DNA of 64,000 bases from Siphonodentalium dalli. Its lineage: Eukaryota; Mollusca; Scaphopoda; Gadilida; Siphonodentaliidae. The position numbers were made by a program, and so were the translations under genes. The notes beneath the pieces are model-generated. The model saw only the letters and a list, made by a program, of their open reading frames with translations, ran no database searches and had not been told where the DNA came from. Positions 7,156 to 22,100 of the stretch are shown one piece after another. Position 1 is the stretch's first letter, and each line of letters starts with the position of its first letter. The stretch is taken from NCBI GenBank assembly GCA_032622095.1, contig CP136063.1:215715982-215779981 (forward strand). The letters are read 5' to 3'.

Positions 7156-10100
7156 GTTAGTGAAACCGTAATTACACTGGTTCCTGCCTCTTGAATCAAT
7201 TAAGTGGCTATAACTGTATAACATGTTACTTAAATTTTAACTATGGAAATTAGAATAAGATTCTCAAGAAAAGTTATCATTTGCATTTGTAATACAGTCA
7301 ATTTCAGTTATGAGTAATTTCATATCGCTTAAGTCATTATTTCAGATATTTCCTTTTAAAAAACTGTTTTATCCATTTCTTTACATATATTGTATTATTT
7401 ATTAGATAATAATGCTGTACAGTCGTGTAGACACACATTTTCTATCTTTCCCAACTTTAATCCTTTCTACACTAACCACTCATTCAATAGTAGTTATCCC
7501 TTAGGAAAAGTTTCAGAGGTTGTTTGTTTGTTGAACTTATTAAATGAACATTTCCTTCTGCATTTTTAGCTCAACTTTACTTTGTAAAGTTTGAGCTATT
7601 GCCATGGCTTTGTCGTCCGTCGTGTGTGCATGATGCGTCAACAATTTCCTTTAGCACGGGCTACAGGTCGTACCTTTGGTCGGATCATTATGAAATTTGT
7701 CATAGCTGTTGACATTGACATGTAGATGGGAAAGAGTCATTTTGGGTTCATTCGGGAAAAAAACATGGCCGCCAGTGGCCATCTTGGATTTCAATATTCA
7801 ATCCATTAGCACGGGCTACAGGTCGTACTGTTCGTCTGATCATCATGAAATTTGTCATGGATGTTAATATTGACATGTAGATGGGAACGAGTAATTTTGG
7901 GGTTGTTCGGCCAAAAAACATGGCCACCGGAAGCCATCTTAGATTTTACTCTTTGCATGACTAAATTCTTTGGCACGGCCTACAGGTCGTACCTTTGGTC
8001 AGATCATCATAAATTTGTTCATGGATGTTAACAATGACATTTAGATGGGAACGAGTCATTTTGGGGTCATTCGGCAAAAAAATATGACTGCCAGCAGCCA
8101 TCTTGAATTTTACTCTTTGTATGACTAAATCCTTTAGCACGGGCTACAGGTCGTACCTTTAGGCTGATCATCATAAAATTTGTCATGGATGTTAACAATG
8201 ACATGTAGATGGGAACGAGTCATTTTGGGGTCATTCAGCCAAAAACATGGCCGCCAGCAGCCACCTTGGATTTTACTCTTTGTATGACTAAATCCTTTAG
8301 CACGGGCTACAGGTCGTACCTTTAGTCTGATCATCATGAAATTTGTCATGGATGTTAACAATAACATGTAGATGGGAACGAGTCATTTTGGGGTCATTCG
8401 GCCAAAAAACATGGCCGCCAGCAGCCATCTTTGATTTTACTCTGTGTGTGACTAAATTCTTTACTGCTCATTTTTACACTCCTTTTTAATCTCTCTATTC
8501 ATTGCTCATCACAAAAAAATTACCTTCTTTACAAAGTTGAGCTACAGTGTCATTGACACTTACTTTCATTATTATATGTCATTTGCAAGCCTGGAAATAA
8601 CTCAAATGTTCGTACCTGTGACATGTAATTAATTACAGGTTATTACAATTACAAATTACAATTACCCCATCCCTGTATGTGTACCTGTCAAAAAGACAGG
8701 GCCAATTGGTTTGTGCTGGCAGGCCTGAAATTAGTGTGCCTGTCATTTGCAGAATGAGGTCCCCAGAGGGTGAATTTAGTGATCACGCATAGTGGGCTGG
8801 CATCACTAAATTTACCCTCTGGGGGACCTCATCCTGCATAGGCCTCATCTTCTCTGGAAAGTTTCTTTATTATCTAATTTCTACAGAAATTTCTTCACAT
8901 AGATTCTATTTCTTTTTTAGTTTAGTTTCTCTATATCCCCAAATTGGCAGATGACACATTGCATAATCAATGTTCCTAAATGGATGTACTTCTCAATATT
9001 CACCATTTGGGAACTTCAATCTGAGACTATGTCTCCCATAGCAGATGAGACCATGCAGAATGAGGTTCCCAGAGGGTGAATTTAGTAATGCTAGCCCGCT
9101 ATGCGGTATAGCGTCACTAAATTCACCCTCTGGGGACCTCATTCTGCAAATGGCAGGCACACTAACTCAGGCTTGTGTGCCAGTCATTAATAATATTGTG
9201 CCAGTAAATAGAAATTTTCAAAGTATATGCTATCTGTTATGTTTATTGGGCATTTTGTCGAGAGAGCCCATGGGATGTTTGTTTTCATGTTTGAATACAC
9301 TAGTGACACATATAAGTAAATACATGTCTTAACCCTTTTAGTGCCAGGGGCCGATCTCATCGGCCCTAATTTATGGTCTGTAGAGTGCAATTTTTTTTTT
9401 TTTTTTGGTTAGGCCAATGCATTCTCTTATATATGCGAGGCGACCTATGGTCGACTCGCATATATAAGAGAATGCTTTGGCACAGGGTAAATGTGTTGAT
9501 ACAAAAAATCGGACCTGGCACTCAAAGGGTTAACTCTTATCAAGTCATATTGAGAGTAAGTAGTTTTAAAAACATTCAGTTACAATGTACAAGTAACAAG
9601 TTTATTATCTTACACACATTGAATCAACAAAAAAATGCAGCACATTTATCAGTGCATAATACCTGTACACAAATGAACATTTCCAGACTGTCGTTTGCTC
9701 ATATTTTCTGAACATCCCTCCAGATGAATAATAGATCTTTCCAATGTATACTTTTATAACTGAATGGGAGAATCAATTTAGTATAGAAAGGGTTAAAGTC
9801 ATAGACTTAAATGTAATTCGAAGACTAACCCTTTACCCAACAGACGGCCCTGTGCCAATGCATTCTCTTATATATGCGAGTCGACCATAGGTCGCCTCGC
9901 ATATATAAGAGAATGCATTGGCTTAACACATATTAAAAATGATAAAAATTTGTCAAAGAATGTAGAAAAATATTATAAAAAATGTAAGAAAAAATTATAA
10001 AATTGTTAAAGAATGTAAGAATTAATGGTAAAAAGTGTTAAAAAAGAATTTGTTTAGGCCAATGCATTCTCTTATATATGCGAGGCGACCTATGGTCGAC

Positions 10101-13100
10101 TCGCATATATAAGAGAATGCATTGGCACAGGGCATAACTATAACCATCACAATGTGGTCAATGAACCGGTTCCAATGATATCCATATTTGTATGGTGTTA
10201 TTGAGACATACCGAAGATATTTTAGGCTGTTGAAGCTTTATTTGGGCGTTTCTGGCCGCTTTGTTGGGTAAAGGGTTAAATGTAATTCGAAGACTAATCA
10301 AGATATTGTAAAACCTGAACGTTTACGCATCAGTCCAGTTTCTTTATCCCTTTCTATACTAAATGGATTCTCCTACTCATTTATAAAATTATACATTGTA
10401 ATGGTCAATTATTCATTTGGAGGAATGTTAAGGATTTATGAGCAGACAAGAGTCAACACTGCAGATGAATTTATATCTGTTAGTGGGAAATGTTTAGATA
10501 ATAACCTATGGTCATTTGTTGAACTTACAGGTATTATCTTAACATTTCCTGATGGAACTACTTGTCAATGAGTATTTAGTTTAGAAATGGTTAAAAAGCC
10601 GATGATAATCTTCTCTGGAGCTCCGTGTGATCCAACTCAGATTTGATATACAGTAATGCCCTAAAATAATCGACACAGTATCTGGGTTGTCCAGATCTTA
10701 ACTTTGACAATATTAATCAGAATTCCATAGGATTTGGTACCGGTATGTACAATAATGCCCTAAATAATCAACTCCTTAAGCGCAGCAGAATTATGGGTAA
10801 CATTTCAGGATTTAGTCGGAAATATGGCTTGTTGCCATTCATCTGAAAGCTCTCACTGCTTTCCGATGAATGGCAACAAGCCATATTTCCGACTAAATCC
10901 TGAAAAGTTACCCATAATTCTGCTGTGGTTAAGGAGTCTATTATTTAGGGCATTACTGTACAATAGTTGATATCTGAGAATGCCCAAGTCAAGTTCGAAT
11001 TTGGTTACGGTCTGGTCTGATGATTTTAACCCTTTACCCAACAGAACGCCCAGAAACGCCCTAACAGCCTAAATTATCTTCGGTCTGTCTCAATAAAACC
11101 ATGGAAATATGGGTATCATTGGAACCGGCTCATTGAGCACATTGTGATAGTTACAGTTATGCCCTGTGCCAATGCATTCTCTTATATATGCGAGTCGACC
11201 ATAGGTCGCCTCGCATATATAAGAGAATGCATTGGCCTAAAAAAAACTTTTTTTTAACACTTTTTACCATTTTTTCTTTAATATGTGTTAAGCCAATGCA
11301 TTCTCTTATATATGCGAGGCGACCTATGGTCGACTCGCATATATAAGAGAATGCATTGGCACAGGGCCGTTCTGTTGGGTAAATGGTTAATATTATGTCC
11401 ACATTACTCTGGTTTCTATCCACAGGTTACTATCCTCCTCCAGCACAACCAGGTATGTTAATATATTAATATTTGCTGACAGTTATACTGATTTCCCTTA
11501 ACCCTTCGTGATGGGAGCTGCGCTGGTGCAGCATTAAAGATCCTGTGCCAGTGCATTCTCTTATATATGTGAGTCTCCCAGAGGGAGCCTCGCAATATTT
11601 AAAAGAATGCACTGGCTTACAAGGTCAAGGTAAATATTGTTAGGCCAATGTATTCTCTTATATATGTGAGGCTCCCTATGGGAGACTTGCAGGCTTCCTA
11701 TGGGAGACTTGCCGATATAAGAGAATGTATTGGCAGAGTTTTTGCAAAATTTCAGGAGGTGCCAGTCATGGAAGTGTTAATAAATGCTGGCGTAGTATCA
11801 CATACTTCAGCTCAGTAAAGTGGCCTCTTACTCTCAAAATATCCTTTGTAGAACTGCATGAGTATGGCTAGGCTTAATAAATGTACAGAACCACTCACAA
11901 CAAATCGGGAAACATGGAAGAATTGATTGAACTGTGGATTTATAAAGTATTCATTGTATTAAGGAAAAAGCAAGATACATGTACGCAGCAAACCATGATT
12001 AAATTAATAAACGAATCATTGAACAGAATTAGAAAAGATGGTCACCCACAGCGGCAATCCTCAATAGGTGCCAACGACTGTTCTGTGGTGCTTGATACAA
12101 AACACCCTTTTTTTGGGAGATTTTAACACTATCTATATTTTGCAGCTTCCTCCCTCCAATAGTATATAAAATAGAAATATGAATATGTGACCCGCCATAT
12201 CAAATCCAGTCGGAAGTTGGGATTTTTTTACCCTGTGCCAATGCATTGGCCTAACAATTTTTTACAATTTTAATAATTTGTTCTTGTATTCTTTAACAAT
12301 TTTATAATTTCACCCGTACAGAGCCCCAGACAAACATGAGCAGACAACACTCTTCTATATGCTTCTATATATGTGTGGGGGGTCCCTGCAGGGTAATGGA
12401 TGTTTTTTATTTTATGTCCTAAAAATTGTCAGAAACATTTATTTAAAAAAAAAAAATTATAAAAAATTGTTAGGCCAATGCATTCTCTTATACATGTATA
12501 TGCGAGGCGACCTATGGTCGACTCGCATATATAAGAGAATGCATTGGCACAGGGTAAAAAAATACCGACTTACGACTGGATTTGATATGGCGGGTCACAT
12601 ATGTTAAATAAAATAATTTACTAAGTACTTATTGAGGAGAACTGTACTGCCTTAAGTAAAGGACTCATCAAACCGGGGTGGCACCCCAGTTAGACTACAT
12701 TTCGGTAAGAATTTAAACATGGTTATAAACGACAAGATAACCGGAGGATTGTGAGGTTAAAACACATGTAATCATCAACTGGGATGAAATGGTAACTTAA
12801 AGTACAATTGTGCCTCCAGCCAATTTAGATACACATACACCCATATCGGCCATATGGCCATAGAGGCTGTTTATTATGGCCGTTTGTTGAACTATCATCT
12901 GAAAATTTCCTAAGGGAACTCCTCAATGAGTAAAAAAAGGGTTAATTCTTTACCAATGCCTTGGTCCTTTTTATCTTGCTTCAAGTAAGTCAACACCCAA
13001 TATACCACGCTAGATACACATACATTGTAAGGTAGACACTACGTGTATTCCTGTGTGATCGCTAGACAGGCAGCTTTTTCATAAGGCCGATGAAAATTAA

Positions 13101-16100
13101 ATGTGTGGTTGTGGTAATAAGTCAGAACAAAGTAGGATCCGTACAGTAATGCTCTAAATAATCGACTCCTTAACCACAGCAGAATTATGGGTAACTTTTC
13201 AAGGATTTAGTCGGAAATATGGCTTGTTGAAATTCATCGGAAAGCTCTCGGCGAGAGCTTTCCAATTAATGACATTTTAAAATATAACAACGCAGTTTTG
13301 TCCGAGCTTTTATTCCTACGTTATTTGGTAAATATTTTTAAAAAACTTTGCACAGATATTTAGTACCATAGGAACCTGTACACCTGCAATTATGAGGTAT
13401 ATTTGACTGTCTTTTAGTGGAGATATCTCTCTTTTTTTACTTAGAAAATTTTCAATACAGGGGTATACCTTTGTCAAAGTTTTTGTTCCTACATTTTTTG
13501 GTCAATTGTTTTTAAACTTTGCATAGATATTTAGAACCATGGGAACCTGTGCACCTGGGATTATGAGGTCTGTCTGACTTTTTTTTGGTGGCGTTATCCC
13601 CCCTTTTTCGACTTAAGAACATTTTCAATACAGGGGGTATACATGTACCTTAGTCCCACCTGGGACAGGCCCATCTCTAGTTGTCATATATTTTGACACA
13701 TTTTATAGCTTTTCTTGACTCAAATTTTTATGCAAGATTGAGCTAAGATTTATATTGATTGTCTTTATATAAGCTAAAATGAATACAATGCTTTTTATCA
13801 AGAGAGCCCGCTTTAGGATGTTATGTTGACTAGACTTGTAATGTGATATGGTCAGCTTTCCTACCCACTAATCATTATATAGAAACATGCATTGTGGGCA
13901 TGATTGCGCCTCACAAATAGAATAATACAGCTAACAATTGGACATAATACAAAGGCAAAATATTACAGCCAGGAACTGGTGAAATATAAATGCTAAGGGG
14001 GTGGGTAGGAAAAAAGCTGAGCAAACAAAAAAGATAGCAGATGACCAGAACGAAAAAGAAAAACGTGGATATAGCTTAGCATGTATTAAAAGGCAGAGAT
14101 GGGGAGGAGGAGAGCCAGAATTCTGCTATCAATAAAAAGATGTCACCTTGAATTTCTATACAATGGCAGATATTGTTGATGCTAAATATTGCACTGACCT
14201 ACATTCGCATCAAACAGGAAGTAAAATATGATCAATTCATTTATGCCGGTCTCTGTTTGTTTACATTTAAAGTGAAGAGTTCTCTCTTGATAAAACCAAC
14301 TAAAGTGTGGTTTAATTGGTAATATCTTAGAAATCAACCCATTCTGAGATTTTGAGATTTTTATAAAAAAAAAATTTTTGGACAAAAATAAAATTCAAAC
14401 AGATTTTCTTGACAGGGTAGGGGGTTATAAGTAGGGTTGATAGGGATAGGAAACCGCATGCACTTTTATCTTTTCGTTGGCCGAATCTTTATCAGGACTC
14501 AGTTACCAACACTGTGGACACACAATCATTGTGACAGGGTCATTATCATCCTGTGTTGGCCTCTCAATGCACAGATTTACCTTGTGTTTATCTTTGTTTA
14601 ATGGCAATTCGCTGTTGGGGATAGACAAATATAGCCTCACAAAATTCACCCTCTGGGGACCTCATTCTGCAAATGTCAGACACACTATTTCCAGAAATGT
14701 GTACATCCACAAAGGAAGCATAACCACCTGACCCACGACAATCTATCTGAAAACAAAGTAAAGCATATTCCATTCCATTTTATACATAGTACAGTAATGC
14801 CCTAAGTAATCGAATCTTTAACTACAGCAGAATTATGGGTAACTTTTCAGGATTTAGTCGGAAATATGGCTTGTTGCCATTCATCGGAAAGCTCTCGGGG
14901 AGAGCTTTCTGATGAATGGCAACAAGCCATATTTCCGACTAAATCCTGAAAAGTTACCCATAATTCTGCTGTAGTTAAAGAGTCAATTACTTAAGGAATT
15001 ACTGTACCTACATATCACAAATACAGCTATATCTTATCCCGTGTTTCAAATATTTTTACATTGATTGAAGAAATCAAATAAAGAACTTATTCGTTATTGG
15101 GTGGTCCTGTTCCCATCTACACAATGTGAACATGTGTCAAACTGGTGCCACTCCAACAAGTATCCATTAGGGAACAAGGTGATTCTAAGAAGTAGCACTA
15201 GTGCTCCAATCCCTTTGTCAATCGGGGTGTACAGGAAGACAGCCTACCTATGATAATATGTAATCCCGAGCAAAATGTGCTGTCATTGCAGGAACTGTAC
15301 CTTTTATAGAGTGTGATATCTAATTAACACAACTGACTACTAATTAGAACAAAATTCTCTTTAGTCCATTCATTTCATATACATGCGTACCCAGGTCATA
15401 ATAATCATGATCTAGAATGCCTCGAAGGAATATCAAGTGCCACGTTTTGGAATCCATCCAAGGCACAGAAGCAGTCGGAAAGTTATTTTGAAGTTTCGAG
15501 TAGCTTAGCCGAACCAATGCAACACCCCCTAACTTCAATTTCAAGGCATTAGCGGCATGCTACTCCAGTTACTGACAGCCAGGGAAATAAGAGAGTCAGA
15601 ATTTCATTTGAGTAGAACTTGACTAAATGTTGACTTTGACGAGATTCGTCTCATATCATCCATTAACTGTGTGTCAATTGATGGACTTATTATATATTCA
15701 CTAAATTTGTCCATTTTTCTTTAACCCTTTACCCAACAGAAGGGCCCTGTGCCAATGCATTCTCTTATATATGCGAGTCGACCATAGGTCGCCTCGCATA
15801 TATAAGAGAATGCATTGGCTTAACACATTAAAAATTATAAAATTGTTAAAGAATGTAAGAAAAAATGGTAAAAAGTGTTAAAAAAAGATTTTTTTTAGGC
15901 CAATGCATTCTCTTATATATGCGAGGCGACCTATGGTCGACTCGCATATATAAGAGAATGCATTGGCACAGGGCATAACTGTAACTATCACAATGTGGTC
16001 AAGGAGCCGGTTCCAATGATATCCATATGTGTATGGTTCTATTGAGACAGACCGAAGATATTTTAGGCTGTTGAAGCTTTACTTGGCCGGTTTGTTGGGT

Positions 16101-19100
16101 AAAGGGTTAAATGCAGAAGGTTATTATTCCAATATCTATCCGACGTTATGTTTTGTACCCCACTTATAATGTGGTTCGGCTATTGAAATGTGTTTGCCCC
16201 TCCAACCTTTGTGCCCCTGCATGTTTTAGAATGTTTCCTTTCCCAAAATGTACGCTGTCTTTTTGTTCCATATCACACGTTTCTGGTGAGCGAGCTTATA
16301 TTCGCACATTGGTATATAATATGAATACTCCGTTAGTTGATAGGTCAATCATTGGACGCACATTGGTGTATAATATGAATACACAGTTAGTTGATAAGTT
16401 AATCATTGGACGCACATAGGTATATAATATGAATACGCCGTTAGTTGATAGGTCAATCATTGGACGCACATTGGTATATAATATGAATACGCAGTTTGTT
16501 GATAGGTCAGTCAATGGACGAATGGCAGTTTTTTCACCCTCATGCATATCATCCAAAGTGCGTCCGATCAATTAACTACATAATCATATTATAACAATGT
16601 GCGAATATAAGCTCAATCACCAAAAACATGCGATATGGTGTTAAGTTGACCAATATCCATTTATATACATATATATAAGACTCCAGCTAACCTGAAGATA
16701 TATAACAAAAGAGTATAAGTATGAGACATGACACACTCCCATGTCTTTCTAAATGAATGAAACAATCATAAAGTGATTTTAAAGACCAAGAACTTAGGGT
16801 CCATCACAACACCATCCTGTCCAATCTTTAAGAAAAGTTTTAGAAAGTCTCTTCTTTCCCGTTGTGTATCATCTCGATAAGTGGATGGAAGTCTGCTCCT
16901 CCTTTCGTTAAGCAATCAGCTATTTGTTGTCCAGTTTTTATCCATTTCACTGAAACATCTTCCTTGTTTACACTTTCTTTGATACTAGCCAAATCCAGTC
17001 GAAGACGTTTTTCAGATATGAGTTTTGTGGAATGCACATTCTGACACAGAGATTTATTGTCAACCAGACACGTTATTGGAACATGTGTGTCTGAAGCTCC
17101 TTTCTTATTAATCATTTCTTGCAGAATGCTTCTCACAAAATAACAAGCATCAAGTCCATCCACGAGAGAAAGTGCTTCCGCCGCTAGCGTACTCTTGACC
17201 ACCCTTCTTATCTTTTTTGCTGCCCAAGAGATAGGACAACATCTCCCATTACCGCCTTTTAGAAATATGATATATCCTCCTGCACTGGAAATCCTGTCAG
17301 ACAAGTTTGCATACGAAGCATCTGTGTAAAGAACCAACTCCAGTTTGTCCAAATTACCAAGTTGTGGAAATACAAACTTGTACACATTGTTTCTGGCTTT
17401 CCTTACGACTTTGTTGAGTTTCTGCCGAAATTTTGAGTCGCTAATTTCACTTGAAGTAGTAAGATCCAGCACATCAAAAGACAAATCTGGTCGACTTTGT
17501 GATGCTAACCAGTGCATCTGTCCAACAATCTCCATATACACACCTCTCTCATTCCCTTTAGTATTCACTGCATGTTGCACTTGTTTCAATTCCTCTGTAT
17601 ACATGTGCTGCTGAAGATACACTGCCTCACTATCTTGCTCAATGTCTAAACCAATGTACCGAAAACAACTGTCCATTTCCTTCCCACATCTGAATCTTTT
17701 GGTAATGCAATCAATCACTTTCGTTTTGAATAAATCACTGCCAGTCCAAAGAATGTCATCAACATGCATTAAAAACATACCTTCTCCCTGCCAGAGAAAC
17801 AACGCTGGATCGAGTTTGGACTGCACACATGAGAGTCTATCCAATTCTTTTTTCATGCTTAAGAACCATTTCCTGGAAGCATCCACAAGGCCATATACAC
17901 ACTTTTGTAATTTCCATATGACAGGTTCCTTTGAAATACATTCCTTTGGAGGTTGAACATAAATATCTCTATCAATTTCGTCTCCCTGCAGAAACGCTGC
18001 CTTCACGTCTATAGAATGAACAGTAAACTGATATGTAGAGGCTAATGCCAGAAACAATCGAATGCTTTCTTTGTGTGCTGTGGGAGAATCACTCTGGACA
18101 TCGGTTTCCTCCTCGAAGCCTCTGGCCACTAACCGTGCTTTGACTACCCGCTTACCACCATTTTCTTTCTCTGTGATCACCCATCTTGTTGACATTACCT
18201 TCTGATCTTTGTAAGGAACTTCTTCATACACATGGAATGATTTCCAGTTATCAAGCTCTAACTGTTTGGCATTTCTTACATTTTCTTCATCGTGCCTTGA
18301 CACCGGAATAAAAACAGCATTCACTTCATCTATCACATCCACCTTTTTCCACTCATCGACATCTTTCATGAAATCTATTCCAGCCATTACATCTTTATCT
18401 TCTTCCTGTATATTCATGTAAGCCCAATTTTTTCCAGTTGCTTTTCCTCCTTTACTTAATAATTTGGCCTTCATCCATTCATTACTTCCTCTTAATCTGT
18501 ATGCTATAATTTCTCCGACTCTTGGAATATCTTTTACACTGGGATCCTTTGTCCTGGTATCTCCTACATGCATTTCTGGTTGACTGCCACTTAGTTCTCC
18601 AACATTATCTAGCTGCACATTTGCTGCATTCCGCCTATCTCCATGCTGAATGTCATCATCTGATCTTCTATTAACTTTGTTTCCACTAATCTCCTGATCT
18701 TCGTCTGTACACTCTCCATCATCAATTTGTACAGCACTAGAATCTTTAATTTCATCAAACTGTCTTTTTTGTTCATCAGAAGACACTTCCTTTTCTGGGC
18801 CACACCTGATCAGTCTACATGGGTGAACTCTCACATATATACTCCCGTGTCGCACAAACACCACTTTTCCGTCTTGCCCGATCACAGCTCCAGGTCCTTT
18901 CCATCTCTTGTCGTCATCTCTCTTATAATACACTTTGTCACCTTGTTGAAAACACTCGCCTGATGATCTAATCTTATGACGTAATGCTCTTCTGATTCTG
19001 TCAGACGATTCAGCTTGTATAAATCCACGCCGACCCGCCTGTAGTGCATTTAGATGTTTGGCAAATGTTTCACTGATAGTCGTATTCTCTAGTGCTGGAG

Positions 19101-22100
19101 GCATATCTGTCAACACACTAGGCAAGTTAGGATTAGCGCCAAACACTAATTGGTAAGGGCTCCAACCATACACCATGGACAAACTGTTCTTCGCATTCAC
19201 CGCCCATACCAATGCAACTTCTAAGTCCAAGTTCGGTAGTGGTAGCGTGCTGGGCCCATAACCCAGAGGTCCGAGGATCGCAACCTCGCTCTGCTACCAT
19301 GTTAAGTTGACCAATATCCATTTATATACATATATATAAGACTCCAGCTAACCTGAAGATATATAACAAAAGAGTATAAGTATGAGACATGACATATGGA
19401 AAATATATGCACTGTCTTTAACAACAGAGGTGTTCTATAATAGGTTATATATGTGGGAGATTTTGCAGCATATATTATTATGTGAAAACATCTGTATATG
19501 ATTAATATGACATCATAATGATTTATTATGCATGAATTTGCTGCTTTTCCCTGAATTGATTCCCATTATATTGTGCTTCATTTAATCTGCTTTTTGAATC
19601 ACCTAGGTTACGGACCTCCACCTCCAGCTGGATATGCGCCTGCGCCTGGTAAGTGTATTCTTCATTAGTTCTCAGAGCCCTTGTCTATTCCACAAAACTG
19701 GTAAAGCATTCATTGGAATATGGAATCAATAATGGGGTAACAGTTTAATCTCCCCCTTCCCTGCACATCTTCTCCCTTTCCCCCTGAACATTTCCTGATG
19801 TTATAGCTAGGTCCTCATACCTGGTGTTATGGACCAATCATACCCGGTAGCTTTCTGGGTTTCAGTTTCTACAGCATTTCTTTCCATAGCCACTATGGTA
19901 CAGTAAGGCCCTAAATAATTGATAATCCTGAAAAGTTACCCATAATTCTGCTGTGGTTAATGAATCGATTATTTTTGGCATTACTGTAATTATGGAAAAT
20001 TACTTTTCTGCAAACTCAGCATTTGAAAATGCGAAAAATAATAATACTATGTTCTCGGGTACCTCTCTCATCACCAGTATAGGACATCATAAGATGTTGA
20101 CACAACTTGCAACGATAATAATAGTTAAAAAAGGGGACCTAATCTGCCATTTGAATCGTTTGAGTGTAAATATAATGGATGTTGATTTTGTTGCGTTCCA
20201 TAGAGTATGGTTGCAAATCGGTCTGACATTTTGTTTGGAACTTGAAATTTATTCAGTGGAAACTCAATATGCCATTCATTAGTCCAGGAGATATTGGTCG
20301 ACCTCTGCACCCCCCCCCCCCAGGACTTAACTTCACCCCACTAATTTTCTTCCTTAAGGTCTCCTCTAATTTTTTTCACTTGTTAACAAGAAAAAAAAGT
20401 GGCCGCAGAGACTCCAGACAAGATGGCGTCCATCATGGCGGCCATTGTTTTTAAATGCACCAGGTCTCTTTGATCGCCATTATAGTAAAGATGATAGCAA
20501 ATGCGGTCTTGTTTTCCGCTCGATTCGTTATGCTAATATACAACCCTTACAAATTAGCCAAAAATCCGACACCAGAATCCAATATGGCGGCCAAGATGGC
20601 CGCCGAAATGTGAAAATATGCTATTTTTCTGACATGTTACCACCTTTCGATTGTCTCTGTGGGAAAATGTTAGAATTTTTGCTTCATGTTATACATTTAT
20701 CATATAGAGGAGTCATTGGCGAATACATGGGGACCATAATATGCATTCATTGCGGGATATTTTTGTCCGATATCACGTTTTCCCAAATGCCGGTATCATA
20801 GGTCAAAGCCGAATCTCCGTTAATAACGGGATGTTATGTTTCGAATCAATGAATCTTATTGCTATTATAACAACACCCATGCATATATATTTGCAGGAGA
20901 TACTCGAGCTAGGATTCCTCTTATACCTGTGTTGAGGAATATTTACCCAAATCCAAGATGGCGGCCAAAATGGCCACCAGAAATAAAAAATCGCCGAAAA
21001 TCGCTGATTTTAACATCAGTGAGCATTATTGTCATGACAACTCCACACCTGCTTACTATTGTAAGTTGGGAACACTTAGGCGAAGAACTTTCCTTGTACC
21101 ATATCCAAATAAAAGTCCCCCAAACCCAAAATGGCGCCCACAATGGCGGACAGATTTTGTAAAATTACCGAAATTCCCTCATATTCACATCATTGGGCAT
21201 TATTGTCGAGACAACTCCATCCATGCGTACAGTTGAGTTGGAAATACCGAGGTGAAGTAATTACATTACATCTCATGCAAGAAATTGTTTTCCAAATCGA
21301 AGATGGCGGTCAAAATGGTGACCGAAATTTGAAAACACGCCTACATTCCTTTACTTTCTTAGGATGGGCGTTATTGTTTCGCGATTTCTACCACCATTAC
21401 ATGTTGATATGTATGAATTATTCATTAGGGTTTGGCAATTGATACTCACAGTCAATATGGCGGCCAAACTGGCGGGCAGAAATTGAAAAGAATCTGATAT
21501 TATCACATACTAATTTCAACTTTTTGTCATAATATTGATTTGTATAAACAAAACGGTACATAATATAAGCCATATATTAGTTCCAATGTAAGTCGTAGCC
21601 TTTTGGAAGGATGAAAACCCACAATCGCAATGTGGCATTTCAAAATCCATTCTCCACTAAGGGCTCATACTGGCCGTAACCGTATATAGGTGCGCCGAAT
21701 AGTCATATTATGACTTCCAAGAATCAAAACAACAGTACCTGAGCTTATTCTGAATTGCCACATTCAGCATTATCTAGACTCGTTTCCGTCTCTTCGTCAT
21801 ATTAATCTATCTCACTCACAACAACAGTTCACTACTCTTCTTTGTAGGAGTGTGCCACTAATCGCAATGTTTCAAAGAATACATATGCCGGTGTCCAGCT
21901 CACGTGTTGGTTTCGAAAGCTTGGAATTCTTAGCGAGCTTCATTTGTGGTATAGCTTATGGTATAATTCACATGCTACATATGGGGTATATGCGTCATCT
22001 TGTGCGATACACTATAAAGGTATTCGGTCGATGCGTATACTAGCTTTCATAAGGACCTATCTATCTGCATATTGTCAGCTTTGGTGACCTAATGGGGATA

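Follow-up and report, generated by a model that had tools for sequence, protein, structure and literature searches.

The window analysed here, a stretch of 64,000 nucleotides, holds a deleted Ty1/copia-type retrotransposon in which the 5′ long terminal repeat (LTR) runs directly into a 62-nt copy of the host initiator tRNA (tRNA-iMet), complete with its CCA end and altered at a single base, position 58. The best explanation for this arrangement, to which we give a probability of about 0.86, is that reverse transcriptase bypassed the 1-methyladenosine at position 58 (m1A58) of the attached primer and misread it, and that the over-long strong-stop DNA was then rescued by a join in the integrase gene.

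A primer tRNA copy beside the LTR

The 62 nt abut the 5′ LTR (Table 1) and correspond, in the standard numbering used throughout, to positions 14-73 of host tRNA-iMet followed by CCA; the tRNA sequence is contiguous with the LTR end, includes the post-transcriptional CCA and extends beyond position 58, where a change recurs in other copies. The initial annotation of this DNA had recognised a tRNA-iMet cDNA beside the 5′ LTR, with a single T-loop change to C at position 58, and both readings hold good: identity to the host gene plus CCA is 61/62, the change is the only mismatch, and the base is A in all three host genes read. Its proposal that synthesis stopped at about position 14, near modified bases 9-10, can be refined: the end lies at A14, to our knowledge no modified base. 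Likewise, the suggested join to a pol cDNA lacking gag, protease and most of integrase is borne out in that 2,262 nt found between the 5′ LTR and the junction in a sister copy (C8:128661499-128666426, 4,928 bp) are absent here, although neither gag nor protease was identified as such in that sister. With 4,928-bp copies in its family, the window copy is a derivative shortened by deletion. A tRNA gene at this place was considered and rejected, as ARAGORN finds none in the window and the CCA and the LTR context also speak against one.

The element is assigned to Ty1/copia on its RVT_2-type reverse transcriptase, its paired LTRs and its 5-bp target duplication, gag and protease being absent from the window copy. 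The open frame at 16840-19293, which happens to run on through the tRNA segment up to 19293 (ORF list), matches the Pfam family PF07727 (RVT_2) with an E-value of 1.7e-34 and 119.9 bits against a cut-off of 31.6, indicating a copia-type reverse transcriptase. Pfam gives no integrase match for this truncated frame; in the sister L016 the frame just upstream of the junction is, by eye, integrase core. The 95-bp LTR has at least 40 matches in the genome (best 40 of 47 candidates scored).

Table 1. Features of the window element, with the two other clean two-LTR copies
Feature	Position	Strand	Evidence
Whole insertion, two-LTR deleted Ty1/copia-type element, 2,756 bp	16639..19394	-	Identical terminal repeats, CCATA on both sides, RVT_2 match
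5′ LTR, 95 bp	19300..19394	-	100% identity to 16639-16733
3′ LTR, 95 bp	16639..16733	-	100% identity to 19300-19394
Target-site duplication, 3′ side, sense CCATA	16634..16638	.	
Target-site duplication, 5′ side, sense CCATA	19395..19399	.	
pol remnant: C-terminal part of integrase, reverse transcriptase, RNase H	16840..19237	-	ORF list, Pfam; integrase and RNase H parts by eye
tRNA-iMet copy, positions 14-76 including CCA, 62 nt	19238..19299	+	61/62 identity to host gene plus CCA
tRNA position 58, C replacing A	19281..19281	+	Sole mismatch of the copy; 18 nt from the final A
tRNA 59-76, the 18 nt preceding position 58	19282..19299	+	Direct reading
Junction of tRNA A14 and integrase gene	19237..19238	.	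No shared base on either side; sisters L015-L020 unbroken
L026, about 2,783 bp (by hand)	C7:207294649-207297431		LTRs identical over 190 bp, duplication CCCGA
L027, about 2,736 bp (by hand)	C8:56066675-56069410		LTRs 95.5% identical over 243 aligned positions, duplication CCATC

The window also carries repeats of other kinds: a 54-bp tandem array at 16249-16518, immediately beyond the 3′ LTR; an 87-nt near-palindromic repeat with long inverted arms (GCCAATGCATTCTCTTATATATGCGAG...), present seven times at 10047-15974; and five to six spaced repeats around AAGATGGCGGCCAAAATGGCC at 20419-21489.

Host tRNA genes and ordinary sister copies

The initial annotation had named two findings that would speak against its reading, a C at position 58 encoded by the host and a normal leader already containing the 62 nt. 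Three tRNA-iMet genes read on C2 (L021-L023) all have A58 and no encoded CCA, and an exact pattern search for the gene 3′ end with a base other than A at 58, CGAGGATCG-B-AACCTCGCTCTGCTAA, had no match in the genome. With window 19180-19299 as the query, only the window itself is 100% identical over the tRNA part and only the window matches the whole 120 nt, among the best 40 of 787 candidates scored; in the same set, 27 further matches on C2 are 98% identical to the tRNA part over 59 nt, with a single, slightly longer match at 94%. A second array, on C4, carries the iMet 3′ end and has A58 in its pattern matches, among the matches listed. No host gene with C58 was found, then, by the exact pattern search, in the three genes read or among the matches listed. 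Sequences of tRNA-iMet occur in tandem arrays at C2:217.64-217.68 Mb (unit about 1,028 bp) and C4:252.31-252.48 Mb (unit about 1,330 bp), and the one C4 array member read, L059, is degenerate.

The 62 nt are equally absent from the ordinary leader: in all five sister 5′ ends read (L001, L004, L005, L009, L011) the LTR is followed by TGGAAGCGGA(G/A)CGAACTGCAATTACATTGCG... instead. Integrase is unbroken at the junction in 6/6 sisters read (L015-L020), where GAAGATCA runs straight on into ACCGAAC across the point of the window's join; these six belong to the 10 pol-side matches among the best 40 of the 787 candidates.

A pattern search across the LTR and primer-binding site (PBS) of the family returned 24 LTR-PBS places, from which C5:210454269 and C6:145433189, with three mismatches each, were judged unrelated and dropped; in 20 of the remaining 22 the PBS mismatches tRNA-iMet, and iMet sequence is present only in the window and in L025. 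Ordinary copies of the family therefore do not show the primer sequence, and Ty1 copies are said to behave in a similar way. Going by the title of Lauermann and Boeke (1994), the likeness to Ty1 lies in the 20/22 copies that retain a mismatched PBS and the difference in the window copy and L025, which did inherit the primer sequence.

The leader of the window family also contains a T-arm-like stretch, TTGCGATGATCATCGGACCTC, with G at the equivalent of position 58, the base that the window copy has there; its score of 24 against the T-arm complement was reached by none of 2,000 shuffles for the T-arm part and by 3 of 2,000 for the whole tRNA cDNA. Downstream of the mismatched PBS (in L004 and L009, for example) lies GATCATCGGACCTC, 13/14 of which is like the T-arm complement of iMet. 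Ty1 has boxes that serve as accessory tRNA contacts, and this stretch may be a contact of that sort. The 19th leader base differs from that of the copy in the window family (C against G) and in the L026 family (A against T), and in the L027 family it is A in both ordinary leaders read, the same base as in L027. Ordinary copies match the tRNA over only 10 nt in the L026 family and 16-18 nt in the L027 family. In a further family with an iMet PBS (L032-L042) the base opposite tRNA position 58 corresponds to A in 7 copies and to T in 4, a split that seems to follow LTR subfamily, and the next two bases match tRNA 57-56 in 10/11; perhaps a misread has been inherited here, in a leader tolerant of slight over-extension.

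Recurrent change at position 58

The change at position 58 is not peculiar to the window. The genome was searched for the iMet 3′ end with CCA, position 58 being left free, and the background rate of change was taken from positions outside the searched 25-mer. With at most one mismatch outside 58 there are 8 sites at LTR-like ends (6 forward, 2 reverse), reading C, G, A, T, T, G, G and G at 58; two of the G sites belong to a single region that has been duplicated, leaving 7 events, of which 6 are non-A, against a background of 8/217 (3.7%; binomial P 1.7e-8). A wider set of 14 sites at 13 loci, L046 contributing two sites at one locus (Table 2), has a non-A base at 58 in 11/14 against 27/409 (6.6%) elsewhere (P 3e-11), a proportion that may be too high since A58 copies with exactly two other mismatches were counted among the matches listed. 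Mismatches at other positions of the wider set number 43/744 overall, including the 27/409 outside the searched 25-mer, and the next most changed position is 45 (4/13). The spectrum at 58 is T 6, G 4 and C 1, with A retained at 3/14 sites (L026, L056 and L057), and T, G and C all occur beside different LTR ends. The misreading of m1A58 on read-through proposed in the initial annotation thus gains support from both sets.

Table 2. tRNA-iMet copies of the wider set
Locus	Copy starts at tRNA position	Base at 58
L024 (window)	14	C
L025	1	G
L026	30	A
L027	9	T
L028	39	T
L029	15	G
L030	33	G
L046	11 and 53	T and T
L052	27	T
L055	40	T
L056	27	A
L057	10	A
L058	1	G

Not every CCA-bearing iMet place qualifies as read-through: of 33, 21 were set aside since their match to the tRNA goes no further than positions 55-59, and L031, which duplicates L030 in inverted orientation (92.8% over 2,739 bp), was not kept as a separate event. 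For L029, L030, L052 and L057 a second LTR copy was not found, the sequence beside CCA looking like an LTR end. L029 and L058 share, besides G58, a change of C61 to A (AGTTTCC for AGGTTTC), though their LTR ends differ.

A second modified base may also have left its mark. Both copies that run beyond position 9, which we take to be m1G in eukaryotic initiator tRNA, are changed there (T in L025, A in L058), and L027 ends at that base; seven sites pass position 26, and five of these end at 9-15. In so small a sample, errors and ends at position 9 are suggestive of a modified base.

Three clean insertions

The clean cases are the window copy, L026 and L027, which are two-LTR insertions with unlike LTRs, perfect 5-bp duplications and pol directly after the tRNA copy. 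Across them there is no mismatch in 173 tRNA positions other than 58, at which they read C, A and T, respectively. The join to pol is blunt in the window copy and in L027, where it follows G9, and takes place at a shared TGGGCC in integrase in L026. All three lack whatever their families have between the PBS and the integrase junction, as fits an over-long tail unable to carry out ordinary second-strand transfer, and in all three integration afterwards was normal. The insertions are alike in length (2,756, about 2,783 and about 2,736 bp) and all are joined in integrase, which may be coincidence or a size preference.

Other possible fates of over-extended strong-stop DNA

Elsewhere the read-through product may have turned back on itself. 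In L055, L056 and L058 the LTR and tRNA cDNA are followed by inverted tRNA or acceptor sequence and an inverted LTR, and L028 is similar at its LTR end, with 15/17 nt inverted behind the tRNA. This arrangement is as expected if the anticodon or acceptor hairpin had folded strong-stop DNA back so that it served as its own primer, and in the anticodon cases L028, L055 and L056 the base at 58 is identical in the two arms (T/T, T/T and A/A). No target duplications were found around these four inverted-LTR loci in loose alignments (48-53% identity) that make a weak test, and L056 sits in repetitive sequence. In L025 the full tRNA is followed by a short A-tract and then by inverted sequence matching the 3′ internal end of its family (81% over 90 nt).

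Two further loci were noted. L045 (C2:113.37 Mb) has an LTR end and the exact 18-nt PBS running straight into reverse-transcriptase coding sequence in inverted orientation, and is another aberrant strong-stop join, made at the normal stop. At L046 (C3:54.56 Mb, sense 601-1120) two units of LTR end plus iMet cDNA, both T58, flank a short open frame (MADEYVTDKLNEWGFSSLIDIFKEHEID...) whose predicted product resembles a SAM domain by eye and is possibly a captured piece of host mRNA.

Weighing the explanations

Were read-through to have occurred on a tRNA without its methyl group, as in methylase-mutant cells, C58 would have to be an unrelated later point mutation, which we consider very unlikely: faithful copying of unmethylated tRNA would give the A58 seen at 3/14 read-through sites, yet 58 is changed in 6/7 events and 11/14 wider-set sites (the latter perhaps too high) against a background of 3.7-6.6%, while the three clean copies hold no other change in 173 positions and the LTR pairs of the window and L026 are identical. 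With position 58 altered in the majority of copies, it is likely that the primers carried the methyl group and were bypassed, not that they lacked it; copies that keep A58 may come from primers of either kind. An inserted tRNA pseudogene, SINE or artefact that chanced to adjoin an LTR has hardly any credibility left, even though tRNA-derived repeats such as tRNA-Lys 3′ halves are present in the genome, because the copy begins exactly at the LTR end with CCA and is oriented as a primer would be. It sits within a two-LTR unit that has one 5-bp duplication, with no second duplication noticed around the tRNA segment by itself, and copies of this kind are found again at different LTR ends. A search for the tRNA-Lys 3′ end gave 52 places, 51/52 with CCA and 52/52 with A at 58; the nine that were read (L066-L074, on C1, C2, C3, C4, C5, C6 and C9) start near positions 26-30, have flanks that differ at the start and a few recurring sequences downstream, and look like a dispersed SINE-like or LTR-edge family with a tRNA-Lys 3′ half, on which ground the tRNA-Lys places were excluded from the count of read-through events. 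Their uniform A58 suggests that repeats derived from tRNA do not simply have a mutation-prone base there; if taken as read-through, it would run contrary to a general rule.

A templated origin deserves somewhat more attention, though we still rate it as unlikely. The changed base could come from the RNA of the element itself, either by a pause at 58, brief pairing with minus-strand leader, addition of a leader-templated base and return to the tRNA, or by recombination with a T-arm-like stretch of the leader. The window-family leader does contain TTGCGATGATCATCGGACCTC, which is similar to the T-arm complement and has G at the base equivalent to 58, and 2/2 ordinary copies of the L027 family share with L027 an A as 19th leader base, so that a leader-templated base could account for single copies, the window's included. 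Against this, two switches would be needed within a few bases, the 19th leader base differs from that of the copy in the window and L026 families, L025, whose LTR is related to that of the window's family, reads G58 and not C, and T, G and C are found beside different LTR ends.

A proposed route by bypass of m1A58

The proposed course of events is as follows. Plus-strand strong-stop synthesis normally halts at m1A58. Here tRNA-iMet would prime reverse transcription of the element, and in plus-strand strong-stop synthesis the enzyme would copy the LTR and then the attached tRNA, pass m1A58 with insertion of a wrong nucleotide (read as C) and continue to position 14. The resulting 3′ tail, being over-long, would be unusable for ordinary second-strand transfer, and could instead be attached to minus-strand DNA in the integrase gene, at the end of that DNA or somewhere inside it, either by a template jump where the join is blunt (the window, without homology, and L027) or through microhomology (L026). 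The linear product, with two intact LTR ends, would then integrate normally. The identity of the tRNA, its CCA, A58 in the genes read, the repeated change at 58, the LTRs, the target duplication and the lack of the segment in sisters are all read from the sequence; the methylation of A58 in this host, its bypass by the element's enzyme, and the order and chemistry of the join are what we infer.

Relation to known systems

The nearest parallel is HIV. PMC13191261 reports that m1A58 is conserved in tRNAs and present in primer tRNAs, that HIV synthesis stops at m1A58 and extends past 58 when the methylase is mutated, and that only plus-strand products ending at 58, 55 or 54 are usable for transfer. 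As in the HIV-1 tRNA-Lys3 read-through described there, plus-strand DNA has been copied into the primer tRNA beyond 58, and fully over-extended HIV products are likewise unusable for transfer; the HIV observations come from in vitro work and methylase-mutant cells, whereas the present copies are integrated, germline and copia-type, with changes at 58. For m1A in RNA-seq, PMC4787781 describes arrest together with misreading, and a low-C cluster when m1A is followed by A, which the spectrum of T 6, G 4 and C 1 fits; that signature belongs to laboratory reverse transcription, and here a natural enzyme would be recorded in a genome.

Copies of tRNA beside viral LTRs have precedents. Those summarised in PMC12220202 include tRNA-Gly between MMLV LTRs (Colicelli and Goff 1986), 63-65 nt of tRNA-Asp or -Glu in HIV (HITME, Konstantinova 2006), and a retrotranscribed tRNA-Gly beside an HIV provirus that matches the gene perfectly over 67/72 nt and hence shows no misreading, a case that counts against our preferred explanation. 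These resemble the present copies in having mature tRNA with CCA in DNA beside an LTR, cut at the tRNA 5′ side and sometimes with proviral deletions; they differ in being single viral events with non-cognate tRNAs, where ours are recurrent, involve an inferred cognate primer and carry an excess of changes at 58. Primer tRNA sequence is also retained at LTR ends in HIV 2-LTR junctions after faulty processing, according to PMC5618025, in that case in circular DNA as opposed to inherited insertions. Retrotranscribed tRNA beside viral LTRs is known, and the titles and abstract openings listed from open-licence PubMed Central yielded no description of genomic LTR copies with a misread primer tRNA, nor any report of a recurrent error at 58 in inherited copies.

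What the genome may record

Taking these observations together, we lean, somewhat beyond even odds, towards the broader view that this genome is a readable record of tRNA modification and reverse-transcriptase bypass, with errors at m1A58 and perhaps at m1G9, in which bypass and not missing methylation is the usual route and over-extended products survive only via illegitimate joins or snap-back on tRNA hairpins. The copies would provide germline evidence on failure of the m1A58 stop, a step described mainly from HIV biochemistry in the literature covered, and they point to the primer tRNA of a family in which the mismatched PBS of ordinary copies conceals it. Finally, scoring position 58 in CCA-bearing, LTR-abutting tRNA copies is an assay that needs only a genome and is applicable to any assembled one; such an assay could reveal the bypass errors made in nature and allow comparison between primers, between enzymes and between hosts.
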